Assembly (NCBI GenBank): GCA_001303955.1
Contig: LJUP01000011.1
Span: 1-36,799, forward strand
DNA: 36,799 nucleotides
Origin: Bacteroides sp. SM23_62
GTDB taxonomy: Bacteria > Bacteroidota > Bacteroidia > Bacteroidales > SM23-62
Direction of reading: 5' to 3'
Numbering within the stretch: the stretch's first letter is position 1; every line of letters begins with the position of its first letter. This document shows, piece after piece, positions 732-33,301 of the stretch. Both the position numbers and the translations under genes were made by a program. The notes under the pieces were generated by a model, which ran no database searches, was not told where the DNA came from, and saw only the letters and a program-made list of their open reading frames with translations.

Positions 732-832
732 ATTCGAATAGATCATCTATATTTACTGTGGATAGCCAATAGCTGTTCTTGCAGCGTGTTATCTTTATCT
801 GTGAAAAAGTGATTTTCCTGAAACAATTGACA

Positions 833-3964: not shown

Positions 3965-5263
3965 GTGAAACGGATATTACAATATGGTATATATCTTTTT
4001 CTGCTGTTCATTCAGATGGCATGTTCCGGCGGAAATAAAGACAGGGATTCAGTCCTTGAATATTGGTCTTCAAATAATATTGGCGAAATAACCTTCTCCC
4101 GGGAAATTGTGGAGGCGTGGAACCTAAAACATCCTGAATCGACCCTGAAATTCCAACCCATACCCGAAGGTCAATCATCGGAAGAAATAATACTGGCCGC
4201 GGTAGTAGGAAAGACCACCCCTGACATTTACTCCAATATGTGGCAGGGTATTGTTGAGTTCTATGCAAAAGCGAATGTTCTGGTTCCGCTCGATACTTTA
4301 GCCGGTTTTGAGGACTTTGTTCATGATCGTTGTGATTCTTTAACAATCAGGGAAATTACTTCTTCAGATGGTCATATATATCAATTCCCGTGGAAAATAA
4401 ATCCGTTTATGACAATTTATAACAAGAAATTCCTTGCAGAATTAAATCTTGATACGCTTCCGAATACATATACCGAATATTTAAATGCAGCTGAAAAATT
4501 TAAGAAAGATCTTGATGGAGACGGATATGTTGATCAATGGTTCGGGAATACATCCGTAAGACTTGTCTGGTACCAGCGTTTATTCAATTTTTATACATTG
4601 TATATCGCAGCATCTGACGGTTTGCCACTGATCAAAAACAACCGGGCTTTTTTTAACAATGAATATGCCATAGAGGCATTCAGGTTCCTGCAGGAGATCT
4701 ATAAGCAAAGTTATTTTTCTAAAGAGGATCAAACAGCAGGACAGGATCCTTTTCTTGCCGGTAAAATAGCAACCAAATTCACGGGGCCCTGGGAGATAGA
4801 ATACCTGGAAAGATATAAGCCAGAAGGATTTGATTATGATTACTTTCCAATTCCTGTTCCCGAGGATCACCAGGGGCCAGTTTATACCTATTGTGATCCC
4901 AAGAGCATTGTTATTTTCAACACCTGCACCGAGCCCCAGATAGCCTTCGAATTCATTAAAACCATGGTCGATAAGAAGGGAGATCTGTTGTTTCTTCAAA
5001 CAACAAAGCAATTACCACGAAGAAAAGGCCTCGATACCATCAAAGCATATGAAAACTTCTTCAATGAAAATCAGCGGTTACAGGCATTTGTCGAACAGGC
5101 CAAATACATCCGGGGGATGGATAATTGTGAAGTGATAACTGAGGTCCTTGATATAATAACCCAGGAATACGAAGCTTGTGTGTTACATGATATGAAAGAA
5201 CCCGAAAAAGCAATTGCCGATGCTGAGAGGGCGGTTAACATCCTCCTGGGTAGTCAAAAGTAA
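3965..5263 (+). CDS. ABC transporter sugar-binding lipoprotein (extracellular solute-binding protein, family 1-like)
   Basis: GTG start; lipobox-like 'LFIQMAC|SGG'; 'VLEYWSSNNIGEITFSREIVEAWNLKHPESTLKFQPIP', 'FLAGKIATKFTGPWEIEYLE' are typical of family 1 binding proteins; followed by two sugar permeases. Confidence 0.9.
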   Translation: MKRILQYGIYLFLLFIQMACSGGNKDRDSVLEYWSSNNIGEITFSREIVEAWNLKHPESTLKFQPIPEGQSSEEIILAAVVGKTTPDIYSNMWQGIVEFYAKANVLVPLDTLAGFEDFVHDRCDSLTIREITSSDGHIYQFPWKINPFMTIYNKKFLAELNLDTLPNTYTEYLNAAEKFKKDLDGDGYVDQWFGNTSVRLVWYQRLFNFYTLYIAASDGLPLIKNNRAFFNNEYAIEAFRFLQEIYKQSYFSKEDQTAGQDPFLAGKIATKFTGPWEIEYLERYKPEGFDYDYFPIPVPEDHQGPVYTYCDPKSIVIFNTCTEPQIAFEFIKTMVDKKGDLLFLQTTKQLPRRKGLDTIKAYENFFNENQRLQAFVEQAKYIRGMDNCEVITEVLDIITQEYEACVLHDMKEPEKAIADAERAVNILLGSQK

Positions 5264-5290
5264 TTGTTTATTCTCGCTAGAAGTGTTCAA

Positions 5291-6157
5291 ATGAGCCTAC
5301 AGTCAAAAAAATCGATGATATCCTATTTTCTGGTGTCGCCCTACCTGGTCCATCTGATCCTTTTTGTCTCCTTCCCCGTGATTTTCTCTGTTGTGCTGAC
5401 ATTCCATAAATGGAACATTATATCTGAGATGCAATATGTCGGCATTGATAATTACAGCAGACTCTTTCAGGACCGCTTATTCTGGAAATCCTTGGTAAAT
5501 ACATTAACCTTCCTGGTTGTCCATATTCCACTGCAAATCGTCATAGCTTTAGCCCTGGCTTATTTCCTGGATCAAAAGATATTCTGCAAAGGATTTTTCA
5601 GAGCAACTTTCTTTTTACCGGTTGTCATATCCGGAGTCGTCGTCACCATGATATGGAAGCAATTATATGGAGTTGATACAGGATTAATAAACAAATTGCT
5701 TGTAAGTATCGGGTTGGGGAAGGTGGAATGGATAATCAACAAGAACATAGCAATGATCTCAATTGCCATAATGGCCACATGGAAAAATGTCGGATTGTAT
5801 GTGATCCTTTTTTTGGTTGGCCTGCAATCGGTGCCACAAAGATATTATGAGGCTGCTGATGTCGAGGGGGCCAGCAGATGGCAGAAATTCAGATATATAA
5901 CACTACCGGCAATTAATCCCACGATTTTCATGGTGACGATTCTATCTACCATCGGAGGATTTAATTTGTTTATCGAGCCATATATCATGACGGGGGGAGG
6001 TCCTTTGAATAGTACCTTGTCGGCCGTTCTCTACATATATAAACAGGCATTTGAGTTTTATCATATGGGCTATTCGGCATCCCTGGGATTAATATTTGCA
6101 TTCATTATCATGATGGTTGTCGTCATTCAGAAATATATGATTGAAAAGGATGAATGA
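5291..6157 (+). CDS. ABC sugar transporter permease (MalF/UgpA-like)
   Basis: ORF 5264..6157, ATG at 5291 more likely (MSLQSKKSMISYFLVSPYLVHLILFV). EAA loop 'YYEAADVEGASRWQKFRYITLPAINPTIF'; multiple TM segments. Confidence 0.92.
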   Translation: MSLQSKKSMISYFLVSPYLVHLILFVSFPVIFSVVLTFHKWNIISEMQYVGIDNYSRLFQDRLFWKSLVNTLTFLVVHIPLQIVIALALAYFLDQKIFCKGFFRATFFLPVVISGVVVTMIWKQLYGVDTGLINKLLVSIGLGKVEWIINKNIAMISIAIMATWKNVGLYVILFLVGLQSVPQRYYEAADVEGASRWQKFRYITLPAINPTIFMVTILSTIGGFNLFIEPYIMTGGGPLNSTLSAVLYIYKQAFEFYHMGYSASLGLIFAFIIMMVVVIQKYMIEKDE

Positions 6158-6978
6158 GTAGAATGAAAGCTACCAAAATCATAGTCTATATTTTACTGAT
6201 TGGAGCAGGATTCTCTTTTCTGTATCCATTTTACTGGATGATTATTGCATCAGTGACACCTGAAAGCCAGTTGGGGAATTTCAATCTTCTGCCTTTAGAG
6301 ATCAGTTTTGAAAATTACCTGCTCATGTTTAGCAAGATTCCCATTTTCAGATCATTGCTCAACAGCACCATTGTTGCCGTAAGTTCTACAACTGGCGTAA
6401 TTGTATTCGGTTCCATGATAGGCTATGCCCTCGCAAAGGGAAACTTCAGAGGAAAGAACCTCTTGTTCTTTATCATCGTCTTTACCATGACCCTGCCCTT
6501 TCAAATCACATTGATCCCAAATTATGTTCTGATGGTAAAATTCAGATGGGTCGATACATTTGCAGCCCTGATAATACCTTCCTTAAACAGTGCTTTCGCA
6601 ATCATCATGTTCAGGCAGGTATTCAAAGGAATACCGGATGATTTAATTGATGCTGCAAGAGTTGACGGATGCGGTGAGTTAAGAATAATTTTTCAGGTAT
6701 TATGGCCAAACATAATTCCAACGATCGTAACCGTGGGTATCATAACATTCATGAATTCATGGAATGAGGTATTATGGCCGTTGATCGTGATAAGGGATGA
6801 AAATCTGATGACAATGCCCCAGCTGGTAACACTGTTCGCAGTAGGTGGACGAGCCGATGCCCAGCTCGGGGTAAAACTTGCCTCAGCAGTCCTGTTGGCA
6901 ATGCCTATAATTATTGCCTATTCAATATTCCAGAAACATTTTATCAGAAGCATGGCTTCCTCTGGTCTTAAAGGATAA
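6154..6978 (+). CDS. ABC sugar transporter permease (MalG/UgpE-like)
   Basis: ATGA overlap with the upstream permease; EAA loop 'IPDDLIDAARVDGCGELRIIFQVLWPNIIPTI'; 'FLYPFYWMIIASVTPESQL'. Confidence 0.93.
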   Translation: MSRMKATKIIVYILLIGAGFSFLYPFYWMIIASVTPESQLGNFNLLPLEISFENYLLMFSKIPIFRSLLNSTIVAVSSTTGVIVFGSMIGYALAKGNFRGKNLLFFIIVFTMTLPFQITLIPNYVLMVKFRWVDTFAALIIPSLNSAFAIIMFRQVFKGIPDDLIDAARVDGCGELRIIFQVLWPNIIPTIVTVGIITFMNSWNEVLWPLIVIRDENLMTMPQLVTLFAVGGRADAQLGVKLASAVLLAMPIIIAYSIFQKHFIRSMASSGLKG

Positions 6979-7005
6979 ATCACAAATGATAACCTATTTC
7001 TGTAA

Positions 7006-8439
7006 ATGATAACAGTAACCAGAAGCGATATAAAAATTGAAGCAAATGCTGAAAAAGTAATCCCTTTGTATCTGTATATCAGAAACAAAAACAGGATCCG
7101 ACGCATTGTATCCGACGTATTATCCATGAATGAAAAAGTTGTTGAAATAATACTGAACCAGGTTCTTGATGAATTTGGATCAAGGCATATCGGATTTAGA
7201 AAAGTTCTATTAAGAAATTATCATTCCATTGAGAAATATATCACGTCCAAGAAAACCCTGTCATTATCGAGAAAGTTGCTGCTTGGATCGTATTTCACCA
7301 AGGAATATTCCGTTGAATCTGCAGCAGTGTTCAATCCTTCCATTGTCAGGCACCCCGATCAAAACGGACTTGCAAATGGAGACTTTCGATTTATATTAAG
7401 TCTGAGGGCAACAGGAGAGGGGCATATATCTTCCATAGAATTCACATCGGGAATTATCTCCAAAACGGGCGAAATAACATTAGATCCCATGCCATCCAAA
7501 TTGGCCGGTTCATACAGAAGTGCATCTTTACAATTTTCTAAAGATTTTATTGTAAAAAGAGCGAAATATTATGATGATTTCAATACTTCGGTATTTAAAT
7601 ATTTGCCGGAACAATTTTCACGTAATAAGGCAGCGCAGATAATATCCGATGCTGCGGAGAGCATTAAAAATAATTACACCGCCACAAAAGAAGCACTGTA
7701 TGATATTCTTGATACAAATTATGATATCTCTTTTGATAAAGAAACGGCATTGGGAAACAGGGTGATTTTCCCGCAATCAGCAGAAGAATCAGGGGGGATA
7801 GAAGATGCAAGATTTGTAGAATTTTCAGATCAGGATAAGACTACCTATATAGGAACCTATACTGCATATTATAGAGAGGAAATCAAGTCTAAAATAATAG
7901 AAACCGGAGATTTTATTTCTTTCCGTATTCGCTCTCTTTATGGCAGGGCTGTACTTGGCAAAGGGATGGCTCTTTTTCCGGAAAAAATCAACGGGAAATA
8001 TGCCATGATCAGCCGGCAGGGAGACGAAAATCTATCAATAATGTATTCCGATGATCTTTATTTCTGGGATGCCTACAAAACGATTCAGAAGCCTGAAAGG
8101 GAATGGGAGCTGATACAGCTGGGCAATTATGGCAGCCCGGTTAAAACACCTTCCGGCTGGCTGCTGCTGACGCATGGAGTAGGACCGTTGAGAAAATACG
8201 TAATCAGCGCTTCCCTGCTCGATCTTTACAATCCCGAAGTCGTACTGGCAACCCTGGATAAGCCATTTATATATGCAAATGCTGACGAACGTAAGGATTA
8301 TGTGCCCAATGCTGTCTATACGTGCGGGATCATGCAGCATTTCGACAATCTGATTATACCCTACGCCATGTCAGACAGTGCTGTAAGTTTTGCCAGGGTT
8401 AATATTCATTTGCTGATAGACGAATTATTGAGTAAATAA
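7006..8439 (+). CDS. GH130-like glycosidase/phosphorylase (longer form, predicted cytoplasmic)
   Basis: 'AAVFNPSIVRHPDQNGLANGDFRFILSLRATGEGHISSIEFTSG', 'GGIEDARFVEFSD', 'SPVKTPSGWLLLTHGVGPLRKYVISASLLDLYNPEVVLA' are GH130-type signatures; no signal peptide. Confidence 0.8.
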   Translation: MITVTRSDIKIEANAEKVIPLYLYIRNKNRIRRIVSDVLSMNEKVVEIILNQVLDEFGSRHIGFRKVLLRNYHSIEKYITSKKTLSLSRKLLLGSYFTKEYSVESAAVFNPSIVRHPDQNGLANGDFRFILSLRATGEGHISSIEFTSGIISKTGEITLDPMPSKLAGSYRSASLQFSKDFIVKRAKYYDDFNTSVFKYLPEQFSRNKAAQIISDAAESIKNNYTATKEALYDILDTNYDISFDKETALGNRVIFPQSAEESGGIEDARFVEFSDQDKTTYIGTYTAYYREEIKSKIIETGDFISFRIRSLYGRAVLGKGMALFPEKINGKYAMISRQGDENLSIMYSDDLYFWDAYKTIQKPEREWELIQLGNYGSPVKTPSGWLLLTHGVGPLRKYVISASLLDLYNPEVVLATLDKPFIYANADERKDYVPNAVYTCGIMQHFDNLIIPYAMSDSAVSFARVNIHLLIDELLSK

Positions 8440-8447
8440 AACCAGTC

Positions 8448-9749
8448 ATGCCCATTGCCAGGTACATATTCTTTTTATTGATTGTTTTGTGCGCATGTTC
8501 CGGTGCTGACAGGTGCCCTGATGATTCTTTAATAAGTACTTCGCATTTAGAACATCTATTCCAGGAAATTGATATTGATGATAATATCCATCTGGGAACT
8601 GTCTGGATCTATAGCAATGCGCCTGATTATCCGCTCGTCAATGATGAAGACGAGGGTTTCACCTGTGTCGATGATGTCTCACGGGCTTTGGTCTTTTACT
8701 GCCGGCAATATAAAAGAAACCCCGTACAGGACAACCTTGAAAAGATAGAATCATTGACAAGGTTCATAATGTATATGAAGGAAGACAATGGTTACTACCA
8801 TAATTTCATGTTTCCGGATAATGGAATTAACAGAATCCATCCGAATAGCAGGCCAATTCCCAATTTCTGGTCCTGGAGGGCTTTCTGGGCTCTGACCGAA
8901 CTGAATCTGCTGGATTCTCCTGAATTAAATGATCTCAGGGATAAGACCAAACCAGATTTAGAACAATTGGTGAACAACATCGAACAAATATTTTCATCAG
9001 AAAGCGATACTACTGAATTTGAAGGCATTAGAATTCCATCAGTTATTGCAGGATACGGGGCAGACCAGGTTGCGGTTATCATGGTTGGTCTTTGCAATTA
9101 TTATCATATAAATAATTCATTATTTGTTAGAGATCTTCTTCTGAAGTTAGGACATTATCTGGTAGCCGTACAGTATGGGGATGAAAACACATCCCCCTAT
9201 TTTGCGTTTTTAAGCTGGGAAAACATCTGGCACGCATGGGGAAATATGCAGGCCTATGCATTATTGCATACGGGCCATATTCTTGAAAATGCTCAGTTTA
9301 TAGATGCTGGATTAAAAGAGGTGAAACATTTTTACCCTTTCTGCATTGAACAAAATTATTTCAGCGAATTCAGACTTGTCAGGAACCATGACTCACTGCT
9401 GTTGAATGATTTGCTTAAGTTCCCACAGATATCCTATGGGATCAGACCAATGGTATTTGCCTCGCTTGAAGCTTATAACATTACGGGTGATGAAACCTAT
9501 GCCATACTGGCTGGCAGGCTGGCGACGTGGTATTTTGGTAATAATCCTGCCAACCAGGTGATGTATGATCATCTGACAGGGAGAGCTTTTGATGGTATCA
9601 ATACTGCCAGTAAAATAAATTATAATTCGGGAGCAGAGTCTACTATCGAAACACTATTAAGCATTCAGGCAATAGAATCGAATCCTGTTTCAAAACAAAT
9701 AGTACAGGAATACTGTATAAAATGGAATTTGTTTCAAGATCAACCTTGA
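8448..9749 (+). CDS. Lipoprotein with (alpha/alpha)-toroid glycosidase-like region, function unknown
   Basis: Lipobox 'IVLCAC|SGADRC'; 'DEGFTCVDDVSRALVFYCRQYKRN', 'NFWSWRAFWALTELNLL', 'GYGADQVAVIMVGLCNYYHI' look like helical toroid repeats; sits between two GH130 genes. Confidence 0.55.
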   Translation: MPIARYIFFLLIVLCACSGADRCPDDSLISTSHLEHLFQEIDIDDNIHLGTVWIYSNAPDYPLVNDEDEGFTCVDDVSRALVFYCRQYKRNPVQDNLEKIESLTRFIMYMKEDNGYYHNFMFPDNGINRIHPNSRPIPNFWSWRAFWALTELNLLDSPELNDLRDKTKPDLEQLVNNIEQIFSSESDTTEFEGIRIPSVIAGYGADQVAVIMVGLCNYYHINNSLFVRDLLLKLGHYLVAVQYGDENTSPYFAFLSWENIWHAWGNMQAYALLHTGHILENAQFIDAGLKEVKHFYPFCIEQNYFSEFRLVRNHDSLLLNDLLKFPQISYGIRPMVFASLEAYNITGDETYAILAGRLATWYFGNNPANQVMYDHLTGRAFDGINTASKINYNSGAESTIETLLSIQAIESNPVSKQIVQEYCIKWNLFQDQP

Positions 9750-9768
9750 GTAATAATTAAATTTCAAT

Positions 9769-10908
9769 ATGAGGATCTTTACTGTCGATAAGATAATACT
9801 CTCACCGTATGATATAGATTTGTCGTACTCACCATTACGTAAGCAGCTTGATGTTAAAACCTATGTTCTGGGTGCATTCAATCCCGGAATGACAAAGCTT
9901 CCCGATGGAAACCTGATGATCATGGTGCGGATCGCCGAAGCATTGCAACATCCTGTTAATGAAGCAAAAATATCTGCCATCCGGTGGGATAAGAAAAAGG
10001 GATATGTTCTTGATGACTACAAATTGGATCAGGTAGACACCTCAGATCCAAGGAAGTTTATCATAAAGGATTTCTTGCCAAATCCAGTATTTGCCCTGAC
10101 ATCATCATCCTGGCTCTTACCTGTTGAATTATCTGCGAATGGATCTGAAATCATAAGGATTCATTATGACAAAATCATTGCGCCGCAAAAAGGGTATCAG
10201 GAATATGGAGTTGAGGATGCACGTATTTCATATATCAAGGGTAAGTATTATATGACTACTTGTTCGGTAAGTTCGGAAAGACATTCCACAACTTTATATA
10301 CCTCTGATGATGGGTTAAACTATCAACTTGAAGGGATCATTCTTGATCACCAGAATAAAGACATGATTTTGTTTGAAGGAGTCATTGATAACAAGTACAT
10401 GGCTCTTACCAGACCTTTGGGCAGCTCCTATTTTGCAACATCCCCTCACAGTATTTTTAACCCTGGACCATCGATTAATCTTGCACAGTCGCCTGATCTA
10501 TTACATTGGAAGCCACTGGATGAACCTTTTATCAGACCGCAGAAAAAATCTGGTCAAATATTAAAATTAGGTGGAGGTACCCCGCCCATATTAACCCCAG
10601 ATGGATGGCTTGTTTTATTCCATGGGGTGGAAAAAAAAGAAGAGGTGGGTATTTACAGGACCTATTGGGCAATACTGGATAAAATCAATCCCCAAAAGAT
10701 ATTGCACCTTGAAATGAAAATACCACTTCTGGAAGCAAATCCTGGCCTTACAAGTGAATTTAGAGAAATAATATATCTCGAAGATGTTGTATTCACTACG
10801 GGAATTGTTAAAATGGAGGATTACTATATAATAGCATCAGGTGAACTTGACCTTTGTACAAGAATTACTCATATTCCAAAATCGGATTTTAGACTAAATC
10901 CTAGATAA
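9769..10908 (+). CDS. GH130 family beta-mannoside phosphorylase/mannosidase-like protein
   Basis: 'GAFNPGMTKLPDGNLMIMVRIAEAL', 'YGVEDARISYIKGKYYMTTCSVS', 'MALTRPLGSSYFATSPHSIFNPGPSINLAQSPDLLHW', 'GGGTPPILTPDGWLVLFHGVE' are typical GH130 motifs; no signal peptide. Confidence 0.88.
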   Translation: MRIFTVDKIILSPYDIDLSYSPLRKQLDVKTYVLGAFNPGMTKLPDGNLMIMVRIAEALQHPVNEAKISAIRWDKKKGYVLDDYKLDQVDTSDPRKFIIKDFLPNPVFALTSSSWLLPVELSANGSEIIRIHYDKIIAPQKGYQEYGVEDARISYIKGKYYMTTCSVSSERHSTTLYTSDDGLNYQLEGIILDHQNKDMILFEGVIDNKYMALTRPLGSSYFATSPHSIFNPGPSINLAQSPDLLHWKPLDEPFIRPQKKSGQILKLGGGTPPILTPDGWLVLFHGVEKKEEVGIYRTYWAILDKINPQKILHLEMKIPLLEANPGLTSEFREIIYLEDVVFTTGIVKMEDYYIIASGELDLCTRITHIPKSDFRLNPR

Positions 10909-10944
10909 TTATACAGGGTAATCATTGCAGAAATTATTCATGTC

Positions 10945-12051
10945 ATGGCAGAAATCAGGTTTGAGAATGTTTCAAAGATCTATCAGCAGAAAGTCAAAGC
11001 GGTAAAGGATATTAATCTTAGCATAAATGACAAGGAGTTTGTGGTTCTGGTTGGTCCGTCAGGATGTGGAAAATCAACCATTTTGAGAATGATTGCTGGA
11101 CTTGAAGAAATAAGTGAAGGCAAACTATATATAGATAATAAACTCGTTAATAATCTTCCCCCTAAAGACAGAGATATAGCAATTGTATTCCAGAATTATG
11201 CCTTATATCCCCATATGACAGCCTATGAAAATCTTGCATTTGGGCTCAAGATCAAGAGAATGGATAAGAAGTCAATTCAGGCAAGAGTTATGAGGGCAGC
11301 ACGTATTTTAGAGATTGAAGAACTCTTGGACAGAAAACCAAGGGCAATGTCAGGCGGACAAAATCAACGGGTTGCCATAGGCAGGGCTATAGTCCGTGAT
11401 CCAAGAGCATTTCTCTTTGACGAACCCCTTAGCAATTTAGATGCAAATCTAAGGGTCCAGATGCGTATTGAAATCGCAAAACTTCATAAAAGACTTAATG
11501 CAACTGTAGTATATGTTACGCACGACCAGGTTGAAGCCATGACGTTGGGTGAAAGGATTGTTATCATAGACAAAGGTGAGATACAACAAATTGATACACC
11601 ATCGAATCTGTATGCAAATCCTGCAAATCTATTTGTGGCTGGTTTTATCGGTACTCCCCCGATGAACTTTATACATGGTAAGGTAATTCAAGCGAATGAC
11701 GGCATACTTTTTACAGATAATTCGCAAAAATTTAAAGTCAATCTTCCGTCAAATCATCTGCTAATGAAATACATTGAAAAAGAAGTTGTTCTTGGAATAC
11801 GATCGGAAGATATTTATTATCAGGCTGGGGAGAGTAAAAATGAATTCGCAGTATTAAGTTCTGAAATTAAGTTTGTAGAAAAACTTGGACATGAAATATA
11901 TGCTTATCTTCAATTACAGGACCAACAAATAATCTCCAGGCTTAAATATGATGCTGAAATAATGAAAGGAAGGGTAACCGATTTTTATTTTGACATACGT
12001 AAAATGTATTTCTTTGATAAGTACACAGGGGCAAATCTTCAGATGGAATAA
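10945..12051 (+). CDS. ABC sugar transporter ATP-binding protein (MalK/UgpC/MsmX type)
   Basis: Walker A GPSGCGKST, signature MSGGQNQRVAIGRA, Walker B AFLFDEPLSNLD, H-loop YVTHDQVEAMTLG, and a C-terminal extension consistent with a TOBE-type regulatory domain. Confidence 0.95.
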   Translation: MAEIRFENVSKIYQQKVKAVKDINLSINDKEFVVLVGPSGCGKSTILRMIAGLEEISEGKLYIDNKLVNNLPPKDRDIAIVFQNYALYPHMTAYENLAFGLKIKRMDKKSIQARVMRAARILEIEELLDRKPRAMSGGQNQRVAIGRAIVRDPRAFLFDEPLSNLDANLRVQMRIEIAKLHKRLNATVVYVTHDQVEAMTLGERIVIIDKGEIQQIDTPSNLYANPANLFVAGFIGTPPMNFIHGKVIQANDGILFTDNSQKFKVNLPSNHLLMKYIEKEVVLGIRSEDIYYQAGESKNEFAVLSSEIKFVEKLGHEIYAYLQLQDQQIISRLKYDAEIMKGRVTDFYFDIRKMYFFDKYTGANLQME

Positions 12052-21974: not shown

Positions 21975-24900
21975 ATGAAAAGAATGAGGTCAAAGTCTTT
22001 CCTGTTTCTGGCTGGAATGCTGATGATAATTGCCATGGCCTGGATAGGTTTCAACTGTCAGGGCAGAATTAATACGTCCCAGAGAATTCTTAACAAAATT
22101 GGAATTACTCGAGGTATTTGTGTTTTACTGGGGGATATAAGCGGTAAACTGGCAATAAGCCTTGCACAAAAAAGTGAGTTATTGATTTATGTACAATTAA
22201 CCAGCGCGGAGGATGTAAAAGTTGCACGCCAGGTGATAGATTCAGCCGGATTTTATGGAACACGTATCTTCGTCGAGAAAGGCCCGTTATCAAGGGTGCA
22301 TCTTGCTGATAATCTTGCTGATGCTCTTATTGCAATGGGCGAAGAAACAAATATTTCCGAGTCAGAGGTACTCCGGGTCCTGTGTCCCCGGGGAATAGCA
22401 TTATTGGATGGGAAAGAACTGGTAAAACCATTTCCTGAAGGAATAGATGACTGGAGTCATCCATATCATGGCCCGGATAACAATCCGCAATCCAATGACA
22501 TGATTGCCCGGGCACCTTATCTGACACAATTCCTGGCCGAACCATATTATGCACCATTGACACAGGTGGCAGTAGCTTCGGAAGGCCGTTTGTTCAAGGC
22601 TTTTGGCAACATAGCCTTTCACGTGCGTGAAGAAGCACTGCTTAATTCACTGGTAGCATTTAATGGTTACAATGGTACGATGCTCTGGAAACGAAGGCTT
22701 ACGCCTGGTGTTATGATTCACCGCAATACCATGATAGCCACTCCCGGTAAATTGTATGTAGGAGATGACAAGAGTTGCAAGGTTATCGACGCTGCCACCG
22801 GCCAGTTAAAAGACGAGATCGTTCCTCCCATAAATTTGGCTGGGGGTACATTCTGGAAGTGGATGGCGCTTGAGGACGGGATTCTTTACGCACTCGTTGG
22901 AGAACAGGAACAGAAAGATCCTGTTGTACGTCAACGCAGAGAAGCACACGGCTGGCCATGGGACCCCCTCTCGAAAGGTTTCAACCAGCCTGAGAATCCG
23001 TGGGGATTCGGACACAACTTATTGGCTATTAATCCGAAAACAAAAAAGGTACTATGGAGCCATCGGGAAGCTGAAAGTATCGACAGCCGTGCCCTCTGTA
23101 TGAAGAACGGGCAGATCTATATCTATAAGCATGGATCATTCCTGGCATGCCTGGATGCAAAAACCGGTAATGATATCTGGAGAAAGACACCGGATAATGA
23201 CCCTGGATTATTCACGGCACTCGGTGATTATTTGCATCGACAGGACTGGCGTACCAATTGGCGGACTACAGCCTATCTCAAGTGCAGTGATAAAGCACTT
23301 TACTTTGCCGGTCCCACTGTCGGTAAACTGCTCGCCGTATCTGCTGAAGATGGCACTGTTCTCTGGGAAGATCCCTATGATAATTTTCAGTTGGTTATTC
23401 GTGACGATGGACTCTATGGCATAAGTGGTCAAATCGACGAGCATAAAAGCAAAAAGTTTGATCCACTTACGGGCGAAGTATTGGCTGAATTTGATACGGA
23501 ACGACGTGCCTGTGCACGTCCGAATGGAGCAGTTGATGCTATATTTTACCGTGCTTTGGGCGGTTCAACCCGCCTGGATATCAACAGTAAAAGCCCACAA
23601 TGGATTTCACCCATGCGGGCACAATGTCATGATGGCGTGACCATTGCCAATGGCCTTTTGTACTGGTGGCCATCAGTCTGTGATTGCCAGAATACAATAT
23701 ATGGTTTTACCTGCCTTGGACCGGCTTCAGATTTTGATTACAGTAAAACAGCCACTGAAAGGGACCGGTTGGAACAAGGTGATCTGACACATATCGCCAG
23801 CCTGGATGAATCACCTGCAGACTGGCCCACCTTTCGGGCAAATAACCACTGTGATGTCACTACGGAAGCAGTGATTTCCGAATTTAATGACCGGCTCTGG
23901 TGGTTTGCACCTGCTACGGAATTTATCCCGACTGCCCCTGTCACAGTTGGTGATCTTGTGTTTTTCAGTGGTTCCAACGGCATGGTGTGGGCCCTTGACG
24001 CAGCTTCAGGGAATGTCCAATGGAAGGCATATACAGGAGGACCGGTCCGATTTCCGCCGACTGTTTGGAAGGGACGTGTGCTGGTGGGTTCCGGTGATGG
24101 ATGGGTGTATGCATTCGAGGCCCGGACCGGGCAATTGTTATGGAGGTTTGATGCAGCCCCCGAATATCGCAAAATACCTGTGTATGGTTCATTAATGTCC
24201 ACCTGGCCGGTTGCCAGCGGAGTGATTGTTGAAGATGGTGTTGCCTATTTTGCAGCTGGTATTGTAAATTATGATGGTATTCACGTATACGCGCTTGATG
24301 CAGCAACTGGAAAGATCAAATGGCAGAATAATACATCCGGACATCTGGATCCTGAGGCTCGCACCGGTGTAAGTGTACAGGGACATATGTTAATTCATAA
24401 TGGTAAGCTCTACATGGCAGGAGGGACTTCTGTTTCACCGGCAGTTTTTGATCTTGCAGACGGAAAATGCCTCAATGATCCGGCACCGCTTAAATTATGT
24501 GGCTCAAGCAGCCCGAGGGGACAGGAACTTTATAAGATAGGTGATAAGGTTGTAGCCTCCGGTATGCCTTTATACGGACACCCAGAATACCCTGTATATG
24601 ATCCTACCGTCACAAATAAAATGTTACATACATCTGCCGGGGGTCGCGATGTAGTTATTATGAATAACCGAAAGATTATGTGTTTTAACAAAATCGATAA
24701 ACAAATATTAAATAACGCTGTGTACGACCCGGCTGATGAAGCATTTTTCATGAGTCCAGGCTGGGGAAAATTGAGTATTGAGGATCAGCCATTATGGGAG
24801 TACGATGGGGGAGAAATAGTAGCCATAGCCCGGTGTAAAAATGCCGTAATCTTTACCAGGAAGCCTGCTGAAAGAACCGCTGGCGGCCAGGCAACCTCCA

Positions 24901-25058
24901 TGGCTGCGCTGGATATCCACAACGGTAAAAACCTATGGAACTGGAATCCGGCACTACCATCTTCTCCGGTTTCCTGGGGTTTGGCTGTAGACCACAGCGG
25001 TCGAATCATTGTCACGCTTGAAGATGGCCAGGTCATGTGCTTCGGTGAAAATAATTAG
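21975..25058 (+). CDS. Exported fusion: N-terminal methyltransferase-like Rossmann region + PQQ-type beta-propeller repeats
   Basis: Signal/anchor 'KSFLFLAGMLMIIAMAWIGF'; 'GICVLLGDISGKLAISLAQKSELLIYVQLTSAEDVKVARQVIDSAGFYGTRIFVEKGPLSRVHLADNLADALIA...VLRVLCPRGIALLDG' is methyltransferase-like; repeated 'VWALDAASGNVQWKAYTGGPVRFPPTVWKGRVLVGSGDGWVYAFEARTGQLLWRFD' are PQQ/BamB-like propeller blades. Confidence 0.85.
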   Translation: MKRMRSKSFLFLAGMLMIIAMAWIGFNCQGRINTSQRILNKIGITRGICVLLGDISGKLAISLAQKSELLIYVQLTSAEDVKVARQVIDSAGFYGTRIFVEKGPLSRVHLADNLADALIAMGEETNISESEVLRVLCPRGIALLDGKELVKPFPEGIDDWSHPYHGPDNNPQSNDMIARAPYLTQFLAEPYYAPLTQVAVASEGRLFKAFGNIAFHVREEALLNSLVAFNGYNGTMLWKRRLTPGVMIHRNTMIATPGKLYVGDDKSCKVIDAATGQLKDEIVPPINLAGGTFWKWMALEDGILYALVGEQEQKDPVVRQRREAHGWPWDPLSKGFNQPENPWGFGHNLLAINPKTKKVLWSHREAESIDSRALCMKNGQIYIYKHGSFLACLDAKTGNDIWRKTPDNDPGLFTALGDYLHRQDWRTNWRTTAYLKCSDKALYFAGPTVGKLLAVSAEDGTVLWEDPYDNFQLVIRDDGLYGISGQIDEHKSKKFDPLTGEVLAEFDTERRACARPNGAVDAIFYRALGGSTRLDINSKSPQWISPMRAQCHDGVTIANGLLYWWPSVCDCQNTIYGFTCLGPASDFDYSKTATERDRLEQGDLTHIASLDESPADWPTFRANNHCDVTTEAVISEFNDRLWWFAPATEFIPTAPVTVGDLVFFSGSNGMVWALDAASGNVQWKAYTGGPVRFPPTVWKGRVLVGSGDGWVYAFEARTGQLLWRFDAAPEYRKIPVYGSLMSTWPVASGVIVEDGVAYFAAGIVNYDGIHVYALDAATGKIKWQNNTSGHLDPEARTGVSVQGHMLIHNGKLYMAGGTSVSPAVFDLADGKCLNDPAPLKLCGSSSPRGQELYKIGDKVVASGMPLYGHPEYPVYDPTVTNKMLHTSAGGRDVVIMNNRKIMCFNKIDKQILNNAVYDPADEAFFMSPGWGKLSIEDQPLWEYDGGEIVAIARCKNAVIFTRKPAERTAGGQATSMAALDIHNGKNLWNWNPALPSSPVSWGLAVDHSGRIIVTLEDGQVMCFGENN

Positions 25059-25089
25059 GTTGAGGTGGTTTGCTTATTTGACCTGAGAT

Positions 25090-26244
25090 ATGAAAAAAAC
25101 ACCAGATCCTGACAGAATTAGATATGGAGGATTGATCCTGTTGATCTTTCTGTGGATTTGTTGTCATTGCCATACGGTATTCGCATGCAGGTACAATGTT
25201 CGAGAAACAGGCTTTGTTGATCTTGGCGACAAACCCTATTGTTTTTACGGCTATATCAATGATAATACTCCGGAAGAAATTACTTTCCGCTTCAATCAAA
25301 TATTACATGCTCATCTGATTGATTGCAATATCCGGGCTGAAATTATCAATGCTGATCAGCAAAATGATCATCCTTCCATGGTATACATACATCAGTGGCA
25401 AATACAATCATTTCCTGCAGCGGTTCTGGTTTCACCGGATGGGCAATCCCTGGTCGTTACAATTGAAAAGAAGGATGAACCCTTCGAAAAAACACTTAGA
25501 TCGGCAATTGATGACATGGTTACCTCGGCAAAAAGAGAAGAAATCATACAGAAAACCATAGAAACGTATGGCGTGATACTGTTGATTGAAGGAGCAAATG
25601 CCAGGGAAAATGAACAGTTTCATAATGCTGCATCTCAAGCTGTCGAACTGATTAAAAGACAGATGAAATTCATGCCCAAACATATACTTCATCCCCCGGC
25701 TTTGATCTCACTGGAACCAGCATCCTTTGAAGAAGAGAAAATCCTGCTCTGGAGTCTAGGATTAAATGCAGATGATCTGGACAAGCCGCATGCGGCAGTC
25801 TTTTATGGGAAAGCCCGGTGGATAGGACCGCTGATGAAAGGCGGAGAAATCACCGAAAACAATCTGATCGGAATTCTGTCCATTGTTGGGGCTGACTGTG
25901 AATGCGGACTGGACATATCCTGGGTGCAGGGTACGATGTTGCCGATAAGATGGGATCAGCAAACGCAGGCTGAAGTATTTCAATCTCTGGAATTTGATCC
26001 TGAGAATCCAATGGTAAAGATGGAAATCAGCCGAATCCTGAATAAGGGATATTCTTCTTATCCCGGGGTTCCTTCAGGATATCAGGATGTTCCCGGCAAT
26101 GCTGAATCGTTTTCTACATCCTATATTGTCGATGAGGAGAAGACCCATATAAGGGTTTTAAAATATTCTTTTGCGGGATTTATAATCCTGATCCTGGTAA
26201 CGAGTTTTATTATCTTTATCAGAGCAAAAAGGAGAACCAATTGA
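25090..26244 (+). CDS. Membrane-anchored extracytoplasmic protein of unknown function (signal peptide, possibly thioredoxin-like regions, C-terminal TM)
   Basis: N-terminal hydrophobic segment, then 'ACRYNVRETGFVDLGDKPYCFYGYI'; 'QWQIQSFPAAVLVSPDGQSLVVTIE' resembles the cis-Pro region of a thioredoxin fold; 'GADCECGLDISWVQG'; C-terminal TM 'YSFAGFIILILVTSFIIFIRAKRR'. Confidence 0.65.
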   Translation: MKKTPDPDRIRYGGLILLIFLWICCHCHTVFACRYNVRETGFVDLGDKPYCFYGYINDNTPEEITFRFNQILHAHLIDCNIRAEIINADQQNDHPSMVYIHQWQIQSFPAAVLVSPDGQSLVVTIEKKDEPFEKTLRSAIDDMVTSAKREEIIQKTIETYGVILLIEGANARENEQFHNAASQAVELIKRQMKFMPKHILHPPALISLEPASFEEEKILLWSLGLNADDLDKPHAAVFYGKARWIGPLMKGGEITENNLIGILSIVGADCECGLDISWVQGTMLPIRWDQQTQAEVFQSLEFDPENPMVKMEISRILNKGYSSYPGVPSGYQDVPGNAESFSTSYIVDEEKTHIRVLKYSFAGFIILILVTSFIIFIRAKRRTN

Positions 26245-26295
26245 CGAAAACAAATGATCGAGCCTTGGTGACCTCTCTTCGAAAGCTAATTTATC

Positions 26296-27441
26296 ATGAT
26301 TATTCGCCTGATTATAAAAGAGATAGTATATAAAAAATTCAATTTTTTACTGGCCTTGCTGGGGGTAAGTTTTGCTGTGGCTTTTTTTGTATTCTTCTTC
26401 ACAGCCAATGAAGCTTCGACCAGAGAGACGATACGACTGACGAGGGATATGGGCTATAACCTCCGGATTATCCCGAAGGATACGGACATGAATATATTCT
26501 GGACCACAGGATATTCAGAATATACCATGCCTGAAGATTATGTGGATCGTTTCTTGCAGTTCAAGGATTTTTCCTTTGCTCATTTGACGGCAACCCTGCA
26601 GAAGAAAATAAGCTGGCAAAACAAAGAAGTTATTTTAACAGGGATCGCACCAGAGATTGAACCATCGGGAATTAAAAGAACAGCCATGATCTTCAGTATT
26701 GAACCAGCACAGGTATATGTTGGCTTTGAATTGGCAAAAGATCTGCAACTGAAGCAGGGGGACGAGATAGAGGTTCTCGGCAAATACTTCAGCATAAAGA
26801 AAACACTGTCCGAAACCGGAAGCATTGATGATATCAGGATTTATGGAACCCTGGCAGAATTCCAGGAAATGGTTGATTTAAAGGGCAGGATTAATGAAAT
26901 AATGGCACTGAATTGCCTTTGTCTTTCACCCGATGAAAATGATCCTTTGCCAATGTTAAGGGAACAATTGGATCAGGTTCTTCCTGAGGCCAAAGTAGTG
27001 ATGAATACTACTATTGCAAATGCACGTGAAAGACAGAGACACATGCTTGAAGAATATTTTGTCCTTACCACCATCATTGTGATAATTGTGATTGCTATAT
27101 GGATAGGATCACTCGCAATGATAAATGCAAAAGAAAGGGAAAAGGAAACAGGTATATTACGCGCCACAGGACACAGTGTCCTGAAAATATCATTCATTTT
27201 CCTTGGAAAAGCCCTGATAATCGGAATAATAGGTGCGATTATTGGTTATACAATCGGAACGGTTACAGCATTAAAACTCGGTCCAGGTATTTTCATGATC
27301 ACTAAAAATTCAATGAAACCCATATATTCATTATTGGCCTGGGCCATAATCTCTGCACCGGTTTTTACAATGTTATCAAGTTTCATACCCATATTGATAG
27401 CAGTAATGAAAGATCCGGCGGTCACACTCAGAAAGGAATAG
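26296..27441 (+). CDS. FtsX/MacB-like ABC transporter permease
   Basis: N-terminal TM 'FNFLLALLGVSFAVAFFVFFF', periplasmic insert, 'LAMINAKEREKETGILRATGHSVLKISFIFLGKALIIGIIGAIIGYTIG', terminal 'AVMKDPAVTLRKE'. Confidence 0.92.
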   Translation: MIIRLIIKEIVYKKFNFLLALLGVSFAVAFFVFFFTANEASTRETIRLTRDMGYNLRIIPKDTDMNIFWTTGYSEYTMPEDYVDRFLQFKDFSFAHLTATLQKKISWQNKEVILTGIAPEIEPSGIKRTAMIFSIEPAQVYVGFELAKDLQLKQGDEIEVLGKYFSIKKTLSETGSIDDIRIYGTLAEFQEMVDLKGRINEIMALNCLCLSPDENDPLPMLREQLDQVLPEAKVVMNTTIANARERQRHMLEEYFVLTTIIVIIVIAIWIGSLAMINAKEREKETGILRATGHSVLKISFIFLGKALIIGIIGAIIGYTIGTVTALKLGPGIFMITKNSMKPIYSLLAWAIISAPVFTMLSSFIPILIAVMKDPAVTLRKE

Positions 27442-27443
27442 GT

Positions 27444-28094
27444 ATGATTCAACTTGAAGATGTCAGTAAGATATTTGAATCACCCCTAAAACAGGTGGAG
27501 GTACTGATAAAAATCACCTTGGAGGTAAAGAATGGTGAATTTATAGTTGTCAAGGGTCCCAGTGGCAGTGGTAAAACGACCCTGCTCCTGAGTATTGGAG
27601 GAATGTTACGGCCAACCTCAGGAAATATAAGGATTAATGATAAAAACATTTATTTACTAAGTGATAGGGAGCGGACAAAATTCAGGGCACTGAATATCGG
27701 ATTTGTTTTTCAAATGTTTTATCTGATCCCTTATTTAAATGTTCTTGAGAATACCATGCTTTCTGGCGGATTGAAAGACATTGGGACAAAGCGCGGGAAG
27801 GCGTTAAAACTTGCTGAGGACCTGGGCTTATCGGACCGTGTCATGCACAGACCTTCTGAGCTCAGTGCAGGAGAATGCCAGAGGGTAGCATTGGCCAGAG
27901 CCCTGATCCATCAACCAGAAATAATCCTGGCTGATGAGCCAACAGGTAATCTCGATAAGGAAAATTCTTCAGAAGTAGTTCGCATCCTTGCACATTATCA
28001 TCAAAACGGTGGCACGGTAATTATGGCAACACACGGAGATGATGCAGATAAAATTGCCGATCGTATTATTCTTTTAAATAAAGGGGAAATTTGA
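27444..28094 (+). CDS. ABC transporter ATP-binding protein (LolD/MacB-like)
   Basis: Walker A GPSGSGKTTLL, signature LSAGECQRVALARAL, Walker B IILADEPTGNLD; 2 bp downstream of the FtsX permease. Confidence 0.95.
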   Translation: MIQLEDVSKIFESPLKQVEVLIKITLEVKNGEFIVVKGPSGSGKTTLLLSIGGMLRPTSGNIRINDKNIYLLSDRERTKFRALNIGFVFQMFYLIPYLNVLENTMLSGGLKDIGTKRGKALKLAEDLGLSDRVMHRPSELSAGECQRVALARALIHQPEIILADEPTGNLDKENSSEVVRILAHYHQNGGTVIMATHGDDADKIADRIILLNKGEI

Positions 28095-28188
28095 AAATAT
28101 TATTTCATACAGATGAAAAATAATCCAGCTGCATGAGGATATTTAACAATGCAAATGTCGAAGCAGTGTTTTGTTATCTTTATGCTAT

Positions 28189-28923
28189 ATGGACCTCTCT
28201 ATAGTTATTCCCGTTTATAATGAAGCGCAGAAGATCAGGCATGATATCATGGCTGCTTCCGGCTTCCTGTCCGGTCACAAAATGACAGGAGAGATCATTG
28301 TGGTGGATGACGGCAGTACCGATCAGTCATCTGAAGTTGTAAAGAATACCGCTGTGGCGGAGGGTGTAAGCGTGAAGCTCACCGGTTATAAGGAGCATAC
28401 AGGAAAAGGCAAGGCTGTGAAAACGGGGATCATGGAGGCCGGCTCCGGCCTTATCATGTTTATCGACAGCGGTAACTGCGTGCCTTATGATAATATAACC
28501 AGGGGTATCGACCTCCTGAAATCCGGTGAATGTGATATTGCCCATGGATCGCGGTTCCTTGCCAGAAGCCTTATTACGCGACCCAGAAAAGCCTACAGGA
28601 GGATGGTCTCCTTTCTCTTTCGTAAATTCATCCACCTGCTAAGCCGGATACCCGGAAACCTTACCGACACACAGTGCGGGTTGAAGATCTACCCCAAGGA
28701 GATCGCCCATGAATTGTATGCAGCATGCATTACTGATGGATTTTTATTCGATATCGAAATCATCCTCCGGTCCCGGGAGAAAGGATACCGGATCATGGAA
28801 TTTCCGATCGAATGGACCTCCGATCCTGACAGCCGCCTTTCGGTCAGGGCTACTTTCCTTAGAATTTTTTTTGAATTGCGGATGATACGAAAGGCGCTGG
28901 GGCCATCTGGACAGGACAGCTAA
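28189..28923 (+). CDS. Family 2 glycosyltransferase (dolichyl-phosphate glycosyltransferase-like)
   Basis: ORF listed from TTG 28171; ATG 28189 gives MDLSIVIPVYNEAQKI; 'GEIIVVDDGSTDQSSEVV', 'GKGKAVKTGIMEAGSGLIMFIDSGN', 'DTQCGLKIYPKEIA' are DPM1/Alg5-type GT2 motifs. Confidence 0.92.
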   Translation: MDLSIVIPVYNEAQKIRHDIMAASGFLSGHKMTGEIIVVDDGSTDQSSEVVKNTAVAEGVSVKLTGYKEHTGKGKAVKTGIMEAGSGLIMFIDSGNCVPYDNITRGIDLLKSGECDIAHGSRFLARSLITRPRKAYRRMVSFLFRKFIHLLSRIPGNLTDTQCGLKIYPKEIAHELYAACITDGFLFDIEIILRSREKGYRIMEFPIEWTSDPDSRLSVRATFLRIFFELRMIRKALGPSGQDS

Positions 28924-30509
28924 TCACCCTTGGGCATATCACCCTGCAAAAGGTCCCCGATATCCTTCCTGAGGTAAGTACGGATTTCCTGGCCTGGGCG
29001 AAGTTCCTTGTAGCTGTTGAAAAGCGAGATGTAAAGGTACCTTTGACCCGGAGGTGGCCGTTCATATAATTTCTTGATCAGTTCATTTTCCACGGACACC
29101 GCAGCTATGATCAATGGGGCTGCCGGTTGGCCATAATTAACATGATCCCACCAGGCCGTGTTTTTATAGGCACGCAGATACCAGGGAAGGGGCCAGTATT
29201 CATTGCCGGGAATGATTATTTCGATATGTACTTCCCTGCCATCCGGATGAACCCGGCTCACCCTGGAAACCGCCTCGGCAATATCCAGCACATCCTTTCC
29301 CGTATGGGCATAAACATAGGGATTTGCCGGTTCGCAGTATTGCCTGAAGTTGATACTGTGACTGGTATAGAGCCAGTGAACCGCACCGCCAAGAACCAGC
29401 ACCGAGATACCTGTTTTCAGCCAGCGGAACTTCCGTATACGAAAAATACGGACCAATCCGTAGCCCGCCAGAAGCAACAGCCCGTAATAGAACTGCAGGA
29501 TGTTCCAGGGCGTTTTATAGGATATGATGCTGTAAATAATCATCAGCAGACAGGTATACAGTCCCACAAAAAGCATAAAATAATCCCCCTGATTCTTGTC
29601 CTTCTTCAATACAAGCAGGATGAATCCTGCCAGGGCCATCAGGAGCAGCCATAACTCGCTCCAGGGAAATCCGGACGGGTTTTTGGCAAGTACCAGAAGA
29701 TCCAGGTAATAATGCCATGGATGAAGGTGGGCATCATCGAGACCGGAACGGGTGAAATACACCTGGTAGGCAGTGATTGAATCCATGATCCCCTGCGGAT
29801 GACGGAAAAAGGAAGAGTAGAAAGTCACGGATACCAGTCCCCCGGCAATTACTGCAACCAGCAGATGCCATAAAGGATAGTTCATTTGTGTTGGACCGGA
29901 TGGCCCGTTTCGTCTTACCATGAACAGGATGACAACGGCCGAAAACCCGATGGCTGCATAATTGATGATACAGGTTTCCTTGGTGGCATGCATCAATCCC
30001 AGGCAGGTGCCGAACAGGATTGCCCAGCAAAGCTTTTTACTGATGAGGTATCTGTATCCTGTAATCAGGGAGGCAAAACCAAAGAATACCAGCAGCATTT
30101 CGTGGATGAAATAACGGCTGTAGAAAACCATGGCCGGCGCCAGGGCAAAGAGCAGGGCGTTGACCAGCACGGTGATCCAGCCCAGGCTTTCTGCCAGCAG
30201 AAGCAATAGGATCATGAGGGTGATGCCAAAAATGGCCGTAACCGAGCGCAGGGACGATTCTTTCAGGGAAGCGAAATCTGCCTGTCCGAGCAAGCCCGTT
30301 AGGATCCGGGAAGTGTAATACAGCAGCGGGCCATGGTATTCATTCCTGTCGTACCTGTATTCACCTGTCTCGATCAATATGCCCAGCTTGTATGCATTGA
30401 CCGCTTCATCATTATGCATGGGCCTTTGATTCAGGCCGGTGAAGCGGGCCAGTCCCGCCAGCATGCAGATGGAAGCAAAGACCAGGAGATATTTCAGGGA
30501 GTTACTCAA
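28920..30509 (-). CDS. Multi-TM glycosyltransferase, TIGR03663/Agl23-like (GT39/PMT-type fold)
   Basis: 'GLNQRPMHNDEAVNAYKLGILIETGEYRYDRNEYHGPLLYYTSRILTGLLG' is the characteristic N-terminal motif; many TM helices follow. Confidence 0.88.
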   Translation of the reverse strand: MSNSLKYLLVFASICMLAGLARFTGLNQRPMHNDEAVNAYKLGILIETGEYRYDRNEYHGPLLYYTSRILTGLLGQADFASLKESSLRSVTAIFGITLMILLLLLAESLGWITVLVNALLFALAPAMVFYSRYFIHEMLLVFFGFASLITGYRYLISKKLCWAILFGTCLGLMHATKETCIINYAAIGFSAVVILFMVRRNGPSGPTQMNYPLWHLLVAVIAGGLVSVTFYSSFFRHPQGIMDSITAYQVYFTRSGLDDAHLHPWHYYLDLLVLAKNPSGFPWSELWLLLMALAGFILLVLKKDKNQGDYFMLFVGLYTCLLMIIYSIISYKTPWNILQFYYGLLLLAGYGLVRIFRIRKFRWLKTGISVLVLGGAVHWLYTSHSINFRQYCEPANPYVYAHTGKDVLDIAEAVSRVSRVHPDGREVHIEIIIPGNEYWPLPWYLRAYKNTAWWDHVNYGQPAAPLIIAAVSVENELIKKLYERPPPGQRYLYISLFNSYKELRPGQEIRTYLRKDIGDLLQGDMPKGD

Positions 30510-31195: not shown

Positions 31196-33301
31196 CTAAT
31201 TTATCCTTTCTAGGATCCTGTGAATTCTCTGCTTTACTGACTCATCATCAATTTTCTCAAGTACTGACTTCAGATGCCATGTTGTTTCTTCAGGATATTC
31301 CCAGCTGGTTGCTTCGGCGATCCTCACTACAGCGGCCACGGCTTCCTTTTTCAACGCCGGTTCCTCGAGTATGCCGACGGCCATATCCAGTGCTTCCAGT
31401 GATCCTATCCTGCTTAATCCGGAGATGACAATCCTGGATTCAGCCGTATTGGTCGACAGGTCATAGGCATGCCGGATCTCCCTGAATTTGTCAGCATTGC
31501 TCATCTGGTTATCCGCCAGTACCACATCAACATAACCCCTGAGGGCAAGGGCATGTTTTCGCTGGTCACCGGTCGTTGAGGCCAGCTGTTTAAGATCCTT
31601 CATGGGACCGGCATCCGGCCAGCCTGACAAGGCCCTGATGACAGCCAGCTGAATCCCTTCTACTTCTGATCCAAGGTATTCCCTCAAAACATCCAGGTCC
31701 TTGCCATCGCCAATCATGCCAATGATATTGATCAGGGAGGTAAGTACCTCAGGATCTTCGTTATTTCCAATTGCTCCGATGATACCGGCAGACCGGTTTT
31801 CGTTTTCAGGCATCTTCTGGGTGACCGCATAAATGGCTCTTTCAGCTTCCTGTCTTTCCCTGCGGGTATCAGTTTGCCTCAGGACTGTGATCAGATCGGG
31901 TATCAATGCCGGGGAAGCCAGTTTACCCAGTGCCCTGATGGATTCCATCCGGACATCAGGGTCGGGATCCGTTGCATATTCGGATAAAAGTCCCGTGGCC
32001 CCAACCATATTCCTTTCGCCTGTACTCCTGATGAGTTCAGCCCTGATACCGCCTGTTTCTTCCCGGATGCCTGACCGTATGTTTTCATTCGTTTCTGATC
32101 CCGGTAGCATGTACAGGCTCTGGCGGGCCAGTTCTTTTTCCACGCCCGTGGCAGAAGCTGCCAGTCCGGCCAGAAAAATCGCATCCGAAGGTTTTCCGAT
32201 GCTTGCCAGCGCCCGTATTGCCGACATCCTGACATCCTTCACTTCCTCCCTGCCGGCAAGGCTGGCCATGACTTCCCGGTGTACCGAGGAATCTCCGATG
32301 GCAGCCAGGGCTGTGAACAGATATGACCTGGGTACGTTTTGCGATCCACGCAGGTCATCGAAGATCCTGCCCAGCCTGTGGCTGCCATCCAGCTGATATA
32401 CCAGCCGGATGATATATGGATGAAATGCCGGGTCTTCCTGCCGCAGGTGATTTAAGATGAAATGATAGGGATCTTCAGGAGATGTCCTGAATTTCCCTGC
32501 AAGGGCATTGTATTTTAATGTTAGAGGGGGATCTGCCTTGTACACCTGCTCGTAAATGCTGGCAGCGTTTTCTATATCACCCCATTCCATAAGCCGGCCG
32601 GCGCATTTCAACCGGGCATCCAGCACGGCCCATTTCAATGGGGCCGCGGCTACATGACCAAAGTCATCCAGGTTTTCTGCTGCTTCCTCGCCACCCATGC
32701 TTCCCAGGGCGGAAACGGCAGCAAGGGCGAGCTTCTCGGATTCACTGTGCATCAGCCTGGTAAAGGGAATGATGGCAGCTGTGGCCTGCCTGGCCGCAAG
32801 GGAATTTATGACCGCTATCTGCAGCGGTTCATCTCCTTCTGCCAGGACTTGCAGCAATGCCTGGTCGGCTTCGGCACCCGGAATTTTTTCGAGGGCCAGC
32901 AGTGCCGTGCCGGCCATTCCGGGAGTTCGCAGCAGGGCTGACAATACAGGGACCGAACGGGCGGTTCCAATCACACCCAGTTCCCTGCATACATATTGTT
33001 TTCCTGCCGCCGTTGCATCTGATTGCAGGAAGGCTATCATCAGGGATTCGACCTCGCTGATGGTCTCAGCATTGTTATGAACTTCCATCATCAGCTCCTG
33101 CAGATCAGGCAGCCAGCTTCTGCTTTTGTCATAATCATACCCGGCCAGCACACCGAGTATTTTTTCCATCTCTGTCCGGATCTCCGCGGCCGGTACCGGC
33201 TGGGCCTGCAGGTTTATAACCGTTGTATACAGCAATGATACCATTACCAGCCGGATGAACGATCTGGGAAGGAAGGTGGATGGTGCTCGGGTCATTTCCA
33301 A
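31196..33301 (-). CDS. Exported HEAT-repeat protein
   Basis: Repeating alpha-helical units such as 'DPDPDVRMESIRALGKLASPALIPDLITVLRQ', 'REEVKDVRMSAIRALASIGKPSDAIFLAGLA', 'SEVEGIQLAVIRALSGWPDAGPMKDL'; N-terminal hydrophobic signal. Confidence 0.88.
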   Translation of the reverse strand: MEMTRAPSTFLPRSFIRLVMVSLLYTTVINLQAQPVPAAEIRTEMEKILGVLAGYDYDKSRSWLPDLQELMMEVHNNAETISEVESLMIAFLQSDATAAGKQYVCRELGVIGTARSVPVLSALLRTPGMAGTALLALEKIPGAEADQALLQVLAEGDEPLQIAVINSLAARQATAAIIPFTRLMHSESEKLALAAVSALGSMGGEEAAENLDDFGHVAAAPLKWAVLDARLKCAGRLMEWGDIENAASIYEQVYKADPPLTLKYNALAGKFRTSPEDPYHFILNHLRQEDPAFHPYIIRLVYQLDGSHRLGRIFDDLRGSQNVPRSYLFTALAAIGDSSVHREVMASLAGREEVKDVRMSAIRALASIGKPSDAIFLAGLAASATGVEKELARQSLYMLPGSETNENIRSGIREETGGIRAELIRSTGERNMVGATGLLSEYATDPDPDVRMESIRALGKLASPALIPDLITVLRQTDTRRERQEAERAIYAVTQKMPENENRSAGIIGAIGNNEDPEVLTSLINIIGMIGDGKDLDVLREYLGSEVEGIQLAVIRALSGWPDAGPMKDLKQLASTTGDQRKHALALRGYVDVVLADNQMSNADKFREIRHAYDLSTNTAESRIVISGLSRIGSLEALDMAVGILEEPALKKEAVAAVVRIAEATSWEYPEETTWHLKSVLEKIDDESVKQRIHRILERIN

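Follow-up and report, generated by a model that had tools for sequence, protein, structure and literature searches.

The stretch of DNA analysed here (the window; 36,799 nucleotides of contig LJUP01000011.1 from Bacteroides sp. SM23_62) carries four adjacent open reading frames on the forward strand, separated by intergenic gaps of 31, 51, and 2 bp (Table 1). An earlier note on this sequence had described four co-directional genes with this spacing, encoding a large exported methyltransferase-like/PQQ propeller, an extracytoplasmic protein with a C-terminal transmembrane helix (CRY), and an ABC permease/ATPase pair. Coordinates and gaps match that description exactly, and the assignment of all four products is borne out by the domain, hydropathy, and structure searches below. 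Promoter-like and terminator-like matches around the locus were no more than expected by chance.

Table 1. Features of the four-gene locus, with positions counted from the first nucleotide of the window and residues from the start of each protein
Feature	Position	Strand	Description
Exported MT-PQQ propeller, 1027 aa	21975..25058	+	signal - MT - PQQ2 - PQQ1
Propeller domains			MT (methyltransferase-like) aa 30-148; PQQ2 150-604; PQQ1 about 604-1025
PQQ2 segment with invariant C513, C551, C569, C571	23511..23687	+	15/15 aligned and 34/34 further proteins
CRY, 384 aa	25090..26244	+	N-terminal hydrophobic signal, two predicted tandem thioredoxin folds without CxxC, C-terminal membrane helix
Invariant C33 codon of CRY (CRYNVR motif)	25186..25188	+	30/30 aligned proteins
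C270-E271-C272 codons of CRY (CxC)	25897..25905	+	C270, C272 in 30/30 aligned proteins
FtsX/MacB-type permease, 381 aa	26296..27441	+	outer domain between N-terminal TM and three C-terminal TMs
C207-L208-C209 codons of permease (CxC, outer domain)	26914..26922	+	22/22; 20/20 clade II
LolD/FtsE-like ATPase, 216 aa	27444..28094	+	Pfam, NCBIfam

The propeller has a single N-terminal hydropathy segment and matches PQQ_2 (Pfam, 9e-34). Residues 35–123 align with the structure of a SAM methyltransferase (E 1e-5), pointing to a domain that is real but degenerate; its glycine-rich SAM motif I is degenerate (VLLGDISG), and an extracytoplasmic location is predicted for it. A relative from locus L048 matches Methyltransf_11. 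The last two of the four invariant PQQ2 cysteines form a CxC motif (C569-D-C571), and all four are also invariant in genomes without a CRY-type FtsX, so not every propeller depends on the CRY-type FtsX system. The PQQ-type beta-propeller fold is shared with BamB, PQQ-dependent dehydrogenases, and tetrathionate hydrolase, but compared with these the window propeller adds a methyltransferase-like domain, a second propeller, and the four cysteines, and it scores far under all of the named-family cut-offs tested, including that for PQQ-dependent dehydrogenases (TIGR03075; 69 vs 480 bits). Tetrathionate hydrolase was the top structural match for MT-PQQ2; 13% identity over the propeller is no evidence of function, and this candidate function was rejected.

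Elsewhere, the usual partner of CRY is a single PQQ1-MT-PQQ2 chain or adjoining PQQ1 and MT-PQQ2 genes (L031, L033, L048, L051, L054), and relative to this order the MT-PQQ2-PQQ1 arrangement of the window propeller is a circular permutation. The pairing of such a propeller with CRY is not unique to the window, because a protein that shares its PQQ2 motif adjoins a CRY homologue in genome G355 (L094) and the Phycisphaerales genome G352 encodes another ~6 kb upstream of its CRY gene (L012). The window propeller is 67% identical to one encoded by G352. That genome holds 21 matches to the window propeller (e.g., L119–L121), an expansion.

No sequence match to CRY reached threshold in Pfam, NCBIfam, or PDB sequences. 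The AlphaFold model (pLDDT 87.8, high confidence) consists of two thioredoxin folds and a C-terminal helix and, with the hydropathy segments at both termini, predicts a membrane-anchored protein of the thioredoxin superfamily. The closest solved structures are PDI-type tandem domains (PDI a-b and bb'; Foldseek E ~1e-6). CRY shares two tandem thioredoxin folds with the PDI-type proteins ERp57 bb', Eps1p, and QSOX, but unlike these it is predicted to be membrane-anchored, its sequence match is not significant, and CxxC is absent from the canonical helix-1 thioredoxin site in both the alignment and the predicted structure. Four residues of CRY are invariant in the alignment (C33, R38, C270, and C272; n = 30), and C33 and the CxC fall outside the canonical thioredoxin site, unlike the cysteines of PDI-type proteins.

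The permease matches FtsX (PF02687; 43.9 bits vs a cut-off of 25.5, E 3e-11), with MacB_PCD just under threshold, and hydropathy segments at residues 10–39, 255–273, 298–316, and 343–372 predict a four-helix topology with the outer domain between TM1 and TM2. The CxC of this domain contains the sole cysteines of the protein, and the pair is invariant among homologues, occurring as CxxC in one of the 22 aligned. The ATPase matches ABC_tran (Pfam, 5e-30), and its top NCBIfam matches are LolD and FtsE, both under their equivalog cut-offs. Domain content, topology, and nucleotide-binding domain together identify the predicted pair as a type VII (MacB/FtsX) ABC transporter. None of the eight other FtsX loci in the window genome (L001–L008) encodes a CxC in open reading frames >250 codons. 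An FtsX-fold permease with an outer domain and a separate LolD/FtsE-like ATPase are common to the window system and to MacAB-TolC, LolCDE-LolA, FtsEX-EnvC, and YbbAP-TesA, and as in those systems function is probably set by the extracytoplasmic partner or partners. The window system differs in its tandem-thioredoxin partner, its putative PQQ-type propeller client, and the presence of cysteine pairs in all three proteins; no analogue of MacA/TolC, LolA, or EnvC was recognised.

Neighbourhoods were counted for one locus per genome in 32 genomes (L014/L015 included), of which 30 were informative in having room downstream. An FtsX permease lay downstream of CRY on the same strand in 24/30 and the ATPase followed next in 21 of these 30 loci, and a PQQ1 or MT-PQQ propeller occurred within ~3.3 kb on the same strand in 20/30; G006 has one in divergent orientation in addition to these. 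Six of the 30 loci lacked an adjacent permease and ten an adjacent propeller; among the six, the ATPase directly followed CRY in four and L046 had the propeller only. In the sixth, G508, CRY is apart from an intact FtsX-ATPase-PQQ1-MT-PQQ2 cluster (L115). The CRY-permease-propeller association spans the Planctomycetota, a phylum deposited as “Omnitrophota”, and the Bacteroidota-like family of the window. Because the arrangement is conserved in other genomes, chance adjacency of the four genes is untenable. The earlier note had proposed the propeller and the anchored protein as extracytoplasmic partners of the transporter, a claim that would have suffered had homologues not been conserved beside the FtsX/ATPase pair; it withstood this check, and as far as gene association goes it gains from the conserved neighbourhoods and from the linkage in phylogenetic profiles.

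Across 392 Planctomycetota genomes, MT-PQQ2 (E ≤ 1e-40) was found in 64 and the CRY-type FtsX (about E ≤ 1e-60) in 53, with 51 genomes shared. This co-occurrence (51/53; Fisher p about 4e-49) is uncorrected for relatedness and scores the top few candidates per genome. All 17 CRY-positive Planctomycetota genomes have both the propeller and the FtsX type. In seemingly CRY-negative genomes, a divergent CRY homologue carrying a CxC of its own precedes most of the FtsX loci, and the ATPase usually comes after FtsX. Among the 30 best FtsX loci, 27 had a CRY-type match nearby, as did 18 of the next 20; many of these matches score just 20–60 bits, and their assignment draws on position in addition to score. 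Distances in the CRY and FtsX trees were correlated (0.82), with none of 2000 permutations as high. At the level of gene content and order, the association of CRY, FtsX, ATPase, and propeller is firm. No paper describing such a system was found in the open-access literature, and the locus encodes a genuine and conserved type VII ABC system, apparently undescribed, whose cysteine signature is unusual and testable.

A scan of genome contigs with CRY placed it in the Phycisphaerae and in MAGs deposited as “Omnitrophota”. By profile search, CRY was present in 17/392 Planctomycetota genomes and in 11/14 genomes of the small phylum of G356, deposited as “Omnitrophota”. Two relatives from the family of the window genome also carry it, and apart from the window genome it was found in 0/295 sampled genomes of the window's class and 0/396 of its phylum. 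Since only 3/7 sampled genomes of one family are positive within the window's phylum, the cluster was likely transferred from a PVC-type donor into the window lineage. The window genome is 91% complete, and its MAG contamination of 6.3% is a caveat for assigning the cluster to this host. A Bacteroidota-like host is supported by the two CRY-bearing relatives and by two proteins with type IX secretion tails encoded on the contig, as expected for Bacteroidota. These two proteins (window 113–634 and 779–3958) also carry laminin-G-like domains.

The next closest planctomycete FtsX subfamily offers a comparison. Its loci have the same gene order as the window system (thioredoxin-like protein, FtsX, ATPase) and likewise carry two paired cysteines at this site of FtsX, but as a vicinal CC (20/20) rather than CxC, so that the signature of the predicted outer domain is CxC in CRY-type and CC in sister-type FtsX. 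A CxC does occur in 15/20 sister permeases; it was rejected as an equivalent, being at the C-terminus. In 4/6 sister loci inspected, the upstream gene encodes an exported protein whose tail is rich in Cys and His and which is classed as thioredoxin-like on weak Pfam matches in two of four aligned proteins. This partner is shorter than CRY and has no significant homology to it (hhalign probability 1.4), and no propeller was seen at the sister loci. CusA/CzcA family pumps are encoded at two of these loci, a context that favours soft-metal handling. The sister system (L197–L201) was not described in the papers searched.

Type VII ABC transporters work on extracytoplasmic partners and not by substrate transport across the membrane (PMC5985334, PMC12646458), and by analogy with MacB and YbbAP-TesA the window permease is proposed to work outside the cytoplasm through movement of its outer domain. 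The reading preferred here, at a probability of about 0.4, is that the locus encodes a type VII ABC machine that services cysteine sites in the propeller, handing over a soft metal or thiols. The LolD-like ATPase, presumably a dimer, would drive the permease with its CxC-bearing outer domain, and permease and CRY (with C33 and its own CxC) would act together on the four invariant PQQ2 cysteines of the exported propeller. As ATP drives the outer domain, the cysteine pairs would meet, a cysteine-bound ligand would travel from the permease through CRY to the propeller or in the opposite direction, and the propeller site would be matured or reset. For the ligand, a soft metal such as Cu(I) is the likeliest candidate; failing that, it would be a disulfide or persulfide. 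Beyond the gene association and the protein anatomy, which are observed, we infer that the proteins form a complex, and likewise the direction of transfer, the ligand, and any catalytic role. Of the sensing, secretion, or redox functions suggested by the earlier note, thiol or metal chemistry is favoured over plain secretion because of the invariant cysteine pairs. Points against the handover reading are that the sister subfamily also has paired cysteines at that site of FtsX, that its thioredoxin-like partner lacks significant homology to CRY, that the propeller cysteines are invariant even in genomes lacking the CRY-type FtsX, and that six of the 30 loci have no adjacent permease and ten no adjacent propeller.

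The nearness of CRY to the PDI a-b and bb' domains and the four invariant cysteines of the propeller also suit a disulfide relay, in which CRY, anchored in the membrane, would act as a PDI-like isomerase, its CxC forming or shuffling two putative PQQ2 disulfides, and the ABC pair would serve to open the client or to recycle CRY. The missing CxxC at the canonical thioredoxin site of CRY and the metal pumps adjoining sister systems at two loci make this rather unlikely. Export in the manner of LolCDE or MacB, where the ABC pair would pull a peptide or the sometimes lipoprotein-like propeller out of the inner membrane and CRY would serve as adaptor or chaperone, could draw on an ATPase scoring highest against LolD (NCBIfam), a permease matching LolC/LolE and MacB structures, and a G006 propeller that begins with a lipoprotein-like ...NTGC. 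However, the permease is far under the LolC/E cut-off (42.6 vs 362.45 bits), which places it outside LolCDE; no MacA-like adaptor or TolC-like exit duct was recognised among recurring neighbours or scanned window genes; and export would leave the cysteine pairs of three partners unexplained, rendering it improbable.

Many PVC-type clusters, in both phyla, add a molybdate-type importer (ModA-like binding protein, permease, and ATPase) and MoaD-like, MoeB-like, and TauE/SafE genes as conserved neighbours, which raises the prospect of a module making or importing sulfur-ligated Mo/W species for the propeller. These genes are missing from many clusters, and the window genome, at 91% completeness, lacks any modA match yet retains the four-gene core, so the Mo-type genes are not part of that core, an obligate Mo-cofactor function is rejected for the window, and a Mo/W or sulfur-cofactor role is a distant prospect for the system. 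Strings of this type (modA-like/permease/ATPase, MoaD-like, MoeB-like, TauE/SafE) lie beside CRY at L048:10830–15464 and similar loci in two phyla. Propellers are binding scaffolds, a point in favour of an FtsEX-like regulatory mechanosensor in which the propeller would sense an envelope ligand and signal through CRY and the ABC pair. Type VII ABCs can be signal transmitters, but the recurring neighbours include no recognised regulator or wall hydrolase, and such a sensor is the least credible of these alternatives.

More tentatively, the system may represent a new class of type VII ABC machine for ATP-driven extracytoplasmic insertion of a metal or thiol, acting through matched CxC pairs on the permease, a tandem-thioredoxin chaperone, and a client propeller, employed by PVC-type bacteria and passed on to a single Bacteroidota-like lineage. 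What defines type VII ABC transporters is their extracytoplasmic partners, few types of which have been characterised, and the CRY-propeller pair adds a conserved one. It is the first functional handle on the large planctomycete MT-PQQ propeller family, and the invariant cysteines of the system can be mutated one by one. A metal or thiol function, if true, would provide an ABC motor serving cofactor or disulfide maturation outside the cytoplasm.

Elsewhere in the window, a predicted tRNA-Gly (gcc; 32756–32848, forward strand) lies inside a HEAT-repeat open reading frame (31196–33301, reverse strand), and one of the two is probably spurious. A GT2-family glycosyltransferase and an Agl23-type (TIGR03663) membrane protein (28171–30509) adjoin the system and are not recurring neighbours elsewhere. 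A sugar ABC importer (binding protein, two permeases, and a MalK-like ATPase; 3965–12051) forms a glycan uptake module with two GH130 mannoside-phosphorylase-like genes.
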